DNA from: Yinghuangia seranimata
Lineage (GTDB): Bacteria; Actinomycetota; Actinomycetes; Streptomycetales; Streptomycetaceae
Length of the DNA: 64,000 nucleotides
Assembly (NCBI RefSeq): GCF_029953285.1
Contig: NZ_JASAOI010000037.1
Span: forward strand, 124,001-188,000
Direction: 5' to 3'
Shown piece by piece: positions 22,121 to 23,976 of the stretch. The notes beneath the pieces were generated by a model. That model ran no database searches, was not told where the DNA came from, and saw nothing but the letters and a program-made list of their open reading frames with translations. The first letter of the stretch is position 1. The number at the start of each line of letters is the position of its first letter. The position numbers and the translations under genes were made by a program.

Positions 22121-23539
22121 CTACGGCGTCAACCGGTGCAGGTCACGCGGGAACAGCGTCGCGCTGCGCACGTTCTCCGCCCCGACCAGCCGCGCCGTCC
22201 ACCGCTCCAGGCCGAGCGCGAACCCGCCGTGCGGCGGCATCCCGTGCCGGAACGCCGCCAGGTAGCCGGCGTACGGCTCGGCCGCCTCGCCGCGGGCCGC
22301 GAGCGCCGCAACGTAGTCCTCGTACCGGTGCAGCCGCTGCCCGCCGGTGACCAGTTCCAGGCCGCGGAAGAGCAGGTCGAAGCTGTTCGAGTACGCCTCC
22401 CGGCCCGGCTCGGGGTGCGTGTAGAACGGCCGCTTCGCCATCGGGTAGCCGGTGACGAACAGGAACTCGCTGCCGTGCTCGCGCACCGCCCACTGCGACA
22501 GCCACCGCTCGTGCGCGGGCGCGAGGTCCGGTTCGCCGCGCGGGTCCTCGCCGGTGTGCGCGGCGAGCAGCTCCTGCGCGTCGGCGAAGTGCACGTGCGG
22601 GATCTCCTCCGGGACGCGCGGGAGATCGACGCCGAGCAGCGCGCACTCCGCCCCGGCCCGCTCCGCCACGGCGGCGGCCATGCCGGCCAGGACCTCGCGG
22701 ACGACGGCCATCACGTCCCGGTGGTCGGCGACGAACCCGAGCTCGGCGTCGAGCGAGGTGTACTGGGCGAGGTGCCGCGCGGTGTCGTGGGGTTCGGCGC
22801 GGAACACCGGCCCCGTCTCGTACACGCGCTCGAACACGCCGACCATCGCCTGTTTGAAGAACTGCGGCGACTGCGCCAGGAACGCGCGTGATCCGAACCA
22901 GTCGACACCGAACACGTTCGCACCCGACTCGGTCGCCGACGCGACGATCTTTGGCGTGTGGATCTCGGTGAACCCGGCCGCGTCCAGCACCGCGCGGAAC
23001 CCGGCCGTCGACGCGGCCGCGATCGCGTGGGGGGCGCGCAGCAGCGGATGCCGCAGCGCGACCGGCGCGTGGTCGAGGACCGTCGGCAGCGCCGCGGACA
23101 CGCTCGGCCGGTACAGGTCGAACGGCGGCGCGGCCGCCCGGGACGACAGCACCGTCACGGTCGGAGACGTCACCTCGACGCCGCCGGGCGCCTGCGGGTT
23201 CGCGGTCGCGGTGCCGGCGACCTCGACGACGGTCTCCTCGGTCAGGTCCGGCAGCCCGGCCGCGTGCGGGCCGACCGCAACGGCCTGCGCGAGCCCGGTG
23301 CGGTCGCGGACGACGAGGAACGTCGCCGACTTCAGGACCCGGCGGCGGTGCAGCCAGCCGCGCAGCACCACCTGCTCGCCGACACGGGCCGGCAGATCGG
23401 CGGCCAGCGTCCTGGCGGCGGCAGCGGAGGAAGCGGAGGAAGCGGAATGAGCCGAGTGGGCGGCGTGAGCCGCGGAAGGCCCGGGCGGCTCGGGAGCCGA
23501 CGGAGTCGCGGAACTCGCTGGAGTAGAACGGGAGATCAT
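22121..23539 (-). CDS. aspS2: Archaeal-type (non-discriminating-like) aspartyl-tRNA synthetase
   Basis: 472 residues. An Ala/Ser-rich N-terminal tail of about 40 residues, an OB-fold anticodon-binding domain (VVLRGWLHRRRVLKSATFLVVRD), then a class II core: motif 2 region VYETGPVFRAEPHDT with HLAQYTSLDAELGF, and motif 3 GGFALGLERWTARL. FVTGYPMAKRPFYTHP and SNSFDLLFRGLELVTGGQRLHRY split the archaeal/eukaryal-type signature, unlike the roughly 590-residue bacterial AspRS with its insertion domain. It charges tRNA-Asp and possibly tRNA-Asn. Preceded by a T-box leader with an Asp codon. Probably a second AspRS. Confidence 0.88.
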   Translation of the reverse strand: MISRSTPASSATPSAPEPPGPSAAHAAHSAHSASSASSAAAARTLAADLPARVGEQVVLRGWLHRRRVLKSATFLVVRDRTGLAQAVAVGPHAAGLPDLTEETVVEVAGTATANPQAPGGVEVTSPTVTVLSSRAAAPPFDLYRPSVSAALPTVLDHAPVALRHPLLRAPHAIAAASTAGFRAVLDAAGFTEIHTPKIVASATESGANVFGVDWFGSRAFLAQSPQFFKQAMVGVFERVYETGPVFRAEPHDTARHLAQYTSLDAELGFVADHRDVMAVVREVLAGMAAAVAERAGAECALLGVDLPRVPEEIPHVHFADAQELLAAHTGEDPRGEPDLAPAHERWLSQWAVREHGSEFLFVTGYPMAKRPFYTHPEPGREAYSNSFDLLFRGLELVTGGQRLHRYEDYVAALAARGEAAEPYAGYLAAFRHGMPPHGGFALGLERWTARLVGAENVRSATLFPRDLHRLTP

Positions 23540-23559
23540 CACAGGCCTCGCGGGGGTGC

Positions 23560-23850
23560 GTGCTGATCCCTTGGGAGTGCGGGCGAGAAGGGGACTCGCG
23601 GTGCCACCGCACTTTCGCCGCCGCCAGCCCTCGACCGTGACGGTCGACGGCGTGGCGGGGCCTTCGAGCGGCCCGGTGACGGGGGCCGGCCGGCGGGGCA
23701 TGGGGCCCGGGGCCGGGCCGTTCCTCCCCGCACTCGGGAGGGTCTTCACCACCGGGGACAGGTCCGCCTTCGCAACGAGGGGCGGCTCTCTCCTACCTGC
23801 CCGGTCCGGCGGCTACTCGTTCTCCGTCGACGCGTTCCCAGGAGGCTACG
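23560..23850 (-). ncRNA. T-box riboswitch leader, specifier GAC (Asp)
   Basis: On the minus strand upstream of the AspRS gene: an AGTA box (23817-23814), a GAGAG-type AG bulge (23792-23786), a distal-loop-like GTTGCGAA (23776-23769), then GAA (23747-23745) immediately followed by GAC (23744-23742), and the canonical T-box GGTGGCACCGCG (23608-23597). In T-boxes the specifier codon follows the GAA of the loop E motif, so uncharged tRNA-Asp is the predicted ligand. CTTCTCGC after the T-box could pair with GCGAGG before the start codon, suggesting translational control. The outer ends are approximate. Confidence 0.8.
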
Positions 23851-23976
23851 TCCGGCCCGCCCGACGCGGCAACCGAGTTCCCCACCACGCCGACCGGGTG
23901 AACCACCGCCCCCGTCCGTGCGTAGCCGCCCGGCGGCGGGCACGGCGACGAGGCGGCTCCGAAGCCGGAGTCCGGG

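Follow-up and report, generated by a model that had tools for sequence, protein, structure and literature searches.

The window, which is the whole 64-kb stretch of DNA that was analysed, contains on its minus strand the gene aspS2, preceded by a leader of about 297 nt whose elements are collected in Table 1. The gene product scored 531.6 bits against the profile NF003483 (cut-off 353) and 158 bits, below the cut-off of 443, against the model for bacterial AspRS; its closest relative in the PDB is Thermus thermophilus AspRS2. By these scores it is an archaeal-type AspRS (AspRS2), as had been proposed from the letters alone, and it is indeed a second copy, as a separate housekeeping bacterial AspRS (707.6 bits) is encoded elsewhere in the genome. 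In the alignment it shows an H and a P, as in 1n9w and 1wyd, where 3nel and 1b8a have W and K. We take H and P, as opposed to the W and K of discriminating archaeal AspRS, to be the mark of a non-discriminating enzyme, and judging by these residues the aspS2 product is probably one. The genome also encodes GatB, and no AsnRS above cut-off was found in it.

No operon partner of aspS2 conserved across genera was seen. Most neighbouring frames common to several genera merely mirror the aspS2 coding sequence as shadow frames, and the remainder reflect synteny within related genera. The aspS2 frame remains open through the T-box up to a GTG at 23752, a codon within Stem I that a gene caller may pick as the start; the probable start is the ATG at 23539 rather than that upstream GTG. 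From the position of the putative promoter motif, transcription of the leader would begin at about 23836, and some orthologous leaders are likewise preceded by TTG...TA...T motifs.

Table 1. Features of the aspS2 locus, in positions of the window
Feature	Position	Strand	Basis
aspS2, archaeal-type AspRS, 472 aa	22121..23539	(-)	NF003483, PDB match, residue alignment
T-box leader, ~297 nt, 5' of aspS2	23540..23836	(-)	sequence, RF00230 half-hits, homologue alignments and pair counts
Putative promoter: -35 TTGCCG (23872-23867), 18-nt spacer, -10 TAGCCT (23848-23843)	23843..23872	(-)	sequence
Stem I, full length	23730..23832	(-)	RF00230 half-hit and RNAalifold on 49 homologues
Stem I parts: basal helix, k-turn-like element (CGA/GAG), GGAG:CUCC, AGUA, distal helices, AG bulge, apical loop	CGA 23829-23827
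AGUA (S-turn strand, specifier loop)	23814..23817	(-)	aligns with RF00230 AGUA; near-invariant in 49-leader alignment
GAGAGAG, AG bulge of distal Stem I	23786..23792	(-)	aligns with RF00230 AGAGA
Specifier GAC (Asp)	23742..23744	(-)	GAA 23747-23745 before, C then CUCC after; 49/49 leaders
Putative Stem II, GCGGGG ... CCCCGC, with AGGAAC / AUG internal-loop strands	23693..23731	(-)	conserved across long leaders
Putative Stem IIA/B region, CCGUCA(U/C)C motif	23672..23684	(-)	conserved across long leaders
Putative Stem III	23619..23657	(-)	inverted repeat in sequence; length varies among homologues
T-box core GGTGGCACCGCG	23608-23597	(-)	sequence
Anti-sequestrator hairpin	23576..23613	(-)	RF00230 half-hit, pair counts on 35 distinct sequences, own model R1
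A1, AGUGCGG	23613-23607
T-box bulge, UGGCACC	23606-23600
A2 and loop, GCGAGuccccuuCUCGC	23599-23583
A1 3' strand, CCGCACU	23582-23576
CTTCTCGC	23590-23583	(-)	sequence
CCCUU in A2 loop (23592-23588) and AAGGG (23572-23568), putative OFF helix	23568..23592	(-)	conserved complementary pair
Ribosome-binding region GCGAGGccUGUG before ATG	23540..23551	(-)	OFF pairing from minimum-energy fold; weak for window itself
GCGAGG, 5' of aspS2 start ATG 23539	23551-23546	(-)	sequence

All the elements originally pointed out here, namely the T-box core, AGTA (23817-23814), GAGAG, GAA-GAC, CTTCTCGC and GCGAGG, are present on the minus strand. The Rfam T-box model RF00230, named at the outset as a check, gave a divided answer. 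Nothing reached the gathering score (93 bits) anywhere in the 64-kb window, but cmscan of 601 bases under relaxed settings returned two half-matches, one to Stem I (23833-23732, 20.9 bits, E 0.016) and one to the T-box hairpin (23614-23579, 19.6 bits, E 0.037), on the correct strand, in the correct order and about 120 nt apart; both being below gathering, they are by themselves suggestive only. In a search of the aspS2 homologues with the same model, four from Chloroflexi passed, at 95-117 bits, and none of the actinobacterial leaders reached gathering. With four aspS2 homologues above the threshold, the low score of the window probably reflects the reach of the model for GC-rich leaders with insertions, the gathering score being a detection threshold and not a biological feature. 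Our own model of the anti-sequestrator, R1, gave 70 bits in the window, which was part of its training set. Unconstrained folding of the 331-nt leader was uninformative (z -1.2). Elsewhere in the genome a single T-box was detected, in front of ileS (locus L001, on C85); at 57.6 bits with Rfam it, too, is below gathering.

What decides the identity of the leader as a T-box is the comparison with independent homologues. The same leader occurs before aspS2 orthologues of the same order, and before aspS2 in Nonomuraea, Microtetraspora, Micromonospora, Kribbella, Amycolatopsis, Nocardioides, Microbacterium, Kineosporia and others, as well as in Chloroflexi. When 49 long Stem I sequences were aligned without any structure input and then submitted to RNAalifold, a canonical T-box Stem I was obtained, with compensatory changes in 20 of its 22 pairs. 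Counting of these pairs over the 49 leaders found 92% of cells paired and a covariation of 0.457, compared with 0.189 after shuffling and at most 0.101 with slid partners; AGAGAG is invariant in this alignment. For the anti-sequestrator, an antiterminator-type hairpin, 96% of cells are paired and six pairs have changed on both sides (35 distinct sequences). The window itself has the UGGN-ACC bulge within such a hairpin and a Stem I with AGUA, AG bulge and specifier loop, and the sequences assigned to Stem II, Stem IIA/B and Stem III appear conserved and in the correct order.

If the leader had decayed and lost its switching, or resembled a T-box by accident, the low Rfam score and the small change in Shine-Dalgarno (SD) accessibility predicted for the window (see below) would both fit. 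Every conserved element is intact, however, and the compensatory changes run throughout Stem I and the anti-sequestrator of the homologues, which makes decay or chance a scarcely credible explanation. At the level of comparative sequence analysis, covariation in both structures and the homologues that pass Rfam thus confirm the T-box that had been proposed.

The specifier required separate consideration. In leaders of the window type the specifier loop reads GAA-GAC-[C/A], one base shorter than the eight-base loop of RF00230 (GAA-N-XXX-A), so that the codon register needed testing. The T-box of ileS in the same genome has GAA-G-AUC, in agreement with the RF00230 pattern, and the same register applied to the aspS2 leader would give GAA-G-ACC, one base later, and a sensor of tRNA-Thr. 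Yet GAC is fixed in 49 of 49 long leaders, where it sits in the specifier loop of Stem I as anticipated, whereas the base following it varies (C or A, and also G). The Chloroflexi homologues, moreover, have GAA-A-GAC-A or GAA-U-GAC-C, a GAA-N-GAC pattern that fixes GAC as the specifier by homology. In this genome, tRNA-Thr carries U73 and cannot pair with the UGGC of the T-box bulge, whereas tRNA-Asp carries G73, and the gene downstream encodes an AspRS. The invariant GAC and U73 of tRNA-Thr led us to reject the ACC reading, to which we give the smallest probability of all those considered.

The Asp assignment of the original prediction was hence borne out. The specifier is GAC in six further loci of the Chloroflexi group and GAU, the synonymous Asp codon, in Sulfobacillus (L129). 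UGGC can pair with the G73 that tRNA-Asp of this genome carries, just as the UGGU bulge of its ileS T-box matches A73 of tRNA-Ile; the specifier is thus cognate to the downstream gene and the variable base of the bulge is complementary to the discriminator base.

As tRNA-Asn also has G73, the bulge would leave Asn possible, and there are grounds for asking whether the leader senses tRNA-Asn besides or in place of tRNA-Asp: the H and P signature residues make the enzyme look non-discriminating, and with GatB present and no AsnRS above cut-off, Asn-tRNA would be made via Asp-tRNA-Asn. One homologous leader (L113) apparently carries AAC. It is the specifier, however, that excludes Asn, since GAC is invariant and AAC occurs in the specifier loop of neither the window nor any aligned actinobacterial leader; we regard sensing of tRNA-Asn as very unlikely. 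In L113, an AspRS2 leader, the apparent AAC (Asn) specifier lies about 150 nt 5' of the T-box core.

Taken as a whole, the leader is very probably a full-length T-box that is specific for tRNA-Asp and controls the translation of aspS2. The GUC anticodon of tRNA-Asp would pair with the GAC specifier in Stem I, a step for which sequence and homology speak, and the apical module of Stem I (AG bulge and apical loop) would contact the tRNA elbow, as in known T-boxes. When tRNA-Asp is uncharged, its free GCCA end would pair with the UGGC bulge and stabilise the A1/A2 hairpin, which is likewise supported. The hairpin, in turn, may keep the A1 3' strand away from the SD and start region and the A2 loop away from AAGGG, so that the SD would be freed and aspS2 translated. 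With charged tRNA-Asp the hairpin would not be stabilised, the A2-loop:AAGGG and A1-3':SD helices could form, and translation would be turned off. The second AspRS would raise the supply of Asp-tRNA when the housekeeping enzyme falls short.

Control of translation rather than termination was part of the original prediction, and is favoured by the absence of a terminator-like U-run between the T-box and the aspS2 start in the window. In predicted folds, formation of the anti-sequestrator raised the accessibility of the SD in 57 of 64 leaders (mean 0.42 vs 0.22), although the excess over leaders with shuffled spacers was modest (ON-OFF difference 0.20 vs 0.14). The window's own predicted accessibility barely differs (0.57 ON, 0.54 OFF), meaning that the case for translational control rests on the sister lineages, in several of which sequestration of the SD in the alternative fold is clear. 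Kribbella, Nocardioides, Micromonospora and others have an anti-SD (ACCUCC), formed by the A1 3' strand with the bases that follow, which matches the SD (GGAGGU), and in Promicromonospora and Oerskovia anti-SD and SD have changed together along with A1 (UCCUCCAG:CUGGAGGA). In the minimum-energy OFF fold of the window, CGCA of the A1 3' strand pairs with UGUG beside the start codon and CCC pairs with G(A)GG; two relatives (L064, L130) have 8-9 bp at this place. A simple test for an anti-SD:SD duplex, on loci up to L131, gave no signal for the window (p 0.27) or its nearest relatives.

The partner originally suggested for the start region was a different one. Pairing of CUUCUCGC with GCGAGG is possible but not conserved among orthologues, and we set it aside, as well as CTTCTCGC:GCGAGG, because GCGAGG is not kept even in close orthologues. 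The 3' strand of helix A1 is a likelier partner of the SD region.

The second component of the putative OFF state, CCCUU:AAGGG in the window, recurs in other letters as CCCAA:UUGGG and CCUGACC:GGUUAGG; the p-values for this A2-loop:downstream helix are not independent of each other, as the leaders share ancestry. Given that only a few bases separate A1 from AAGGG, we infer that A2-loop:AAGGG and the 12-bp A1/A2 hairpin would be mutually exclusive. In position the helix corresponds to the terminator helix of the Chloroflexi homologues, five of which (L105, L108, L126, L132, L133) show a hairpin and then a U-rich stretch 3' of the T-box. This raises the question of whether the window, too, might terminate transcription prematurely, in the manner of Firmicutes and of the Chloroflexi homologues. 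Against this, the CCCUU:AAGGG helix has just 5 bp, no U-run follows it before the start codon, and many actinobacterial orthologues have an SD that matches the A1 3' strand, so that termination seems improbable. Translation is, from the predicted folds and the comparison with relatives, the most likely output of the aspS2 T-box. The anti-sequestrator is well supported; the helix that competes with it is less certain.

An Asp-specific leader on such a gene had been called unusual at first. The association turned out to be a conserved one: in a class-wide, protein-first sample of 297 genomes, the AspRS2 family was found in 27, and 17 of these have a T-box hairpin before the gene (counted at E 6e-9 or better). 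Nine of the ten genomes that have AspRS2 and no T-box belong to one family and to a lower-scoring synthetase subfamily, the tenth (L171) being a partial-profile hit. This sample replaced a phylum-wide R1 scan that had picked up just 4 of 199 genomes, a low yield that probably stems from a first filter which scores few candidates. A second archaeal-type AspRS subfamily, with no T-box upstream, is present at L165-L170 and L172-L174, all from one family in the class. A more distant AspRS subfamily (about 40% identical; L029, L031, L163) has nearly the same T-box leader, which may mean either that the leader is anciently shared or that it has been transferred.

At one end of the range stand Chloroflexi leaders that are full-length and bear a terminator, at the other actinobacterial leaders with Stem I reduced to a hairpin that presents GAC in a loop of 6-9 nt. 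Such short hairpins were seen at L080, L083, L093, L095, L103 and L112, and also at L152, L157, L158, L160, L161 and L162; examples are GGAG-AUGGACC-CUCC (L095), GGGG-CGUGACGA-CCCC (L103) and, by eye, GGAG-CAGACA-CUCC (L152). The GAC hairpin is present in 15 of 17 short leaders, compared with 7.8 (at most 12) in shuffles, which is suggestive of GAC being presented in a small hairpin loop. On a quick AspRS2 tree, the actinobacterial sequences adjoin T-box-bearing ones from Chloroflexi, and within Actinobacteria long leaders are intermingled with short; the long and short labels were set by pattern and some loci were misfiled, so the count of changes was not used.

We tentatively propose, giving it somewhat less than an even chance, that a single lineage of gene plus switch records the passage from a full-length, terminator-bearing Chloroflexi T-box to an actinobacterial translational switch. 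The old terminator helix would have been kept as the short A2-loop:downstream helix, beside the SD-sequestering helix, in a pseudoknot-like OFF state, and Stem I would have been cut back more than once to a GAC hairpin with a 6-9-nt loop.

Irrespective of its history, the aspS2 leader adds a new amino acid (Asp) and a new gene to the actinobacterial T-box set, which in the open literature comprises ileS and, from one paper, histidine genes, and shows that standard Rfam thresholds miss actinobacterial aspS2 T-boxes. With Stem I in graded lengths and the two modes of output occurring on a single gene, these leaders provide matched material for studying the role of a long Stem I, and the same series bears on how a transcriptional T-box turns translational. 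An inducible spare AspRS may also, at a guess, affect tolerance to AspRS inhibitors.

The open literature describes translational T-boxes of Actinobacteria on ileS (PMC1262725; review PMC7583486), and a further report places actinobacterial T-boxes on histidine genes (PMC9413887). No published aspS T-box in Actinobacteria was found in the open literature; subscription papers and TBDB tables may list one. With the ileS T-boxes the aspS2 leader shares the T-box discriminator, a putative SD-sequestering alternative to the anti-sequestrator and a Stem I that is sometimes shortened or ultrashort. It differs from them in reading tRNA-Asp, not tRNA-Ile, in serving an archaeal-type second AspRS and, in the window, in having a full-length Stem I and GAA-GAC without the usual intervening base. 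Domain order, GAC specifier and gene family are as in RF00230 T-boxes, including those on Chloroflexi aspS (L102, L105, L132, L133); the actinobacterial leaders, however, fall short of the gathering score, and a terminator-like hairpin stands at the end of several Chloroflexi leaders.

A parallel for the gene context is lysK (class I LysRS1) of Bacillus cereus, an archaeal-type second synthetase with a T-box, the housekeeping one having none; it involves tRNA-Lys and tRNA-Asn and, unlike the window's leader, is confined to a single narrow lineage of Firmicutes (PMC2916919). In both cases the T-box is attached to the second, archaeal-type synthetase beside a housekeeping enzyme.

The T-box that controls tRNA-dependent amidation in Clostridium acetobutylicum is said to read both tRNA-Asn and tRNA-Glu and to govern an operon with gatCAB. 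The aspS2 leader resembles the C. acetobutylicum case in that T-box control is tied to an extra AspRS and to the tRNA-Asn transamidation pathway, and differs from it in its GAC specifier and in that no neighbouring gene conserved across genera was seen. In C. acetobutylicum a T-box is found on one of three aspS genes (PMC2494555), and the control of amidation is attributed to Saad 2012 and 2013, which are cited in PMC4206432. As regards the enzyme, the comparison is with T. thermophilus AspRS2 (PDB 1n9w, 3kfu), the closest solved relative and likewise an archaeal-type second AspRS.
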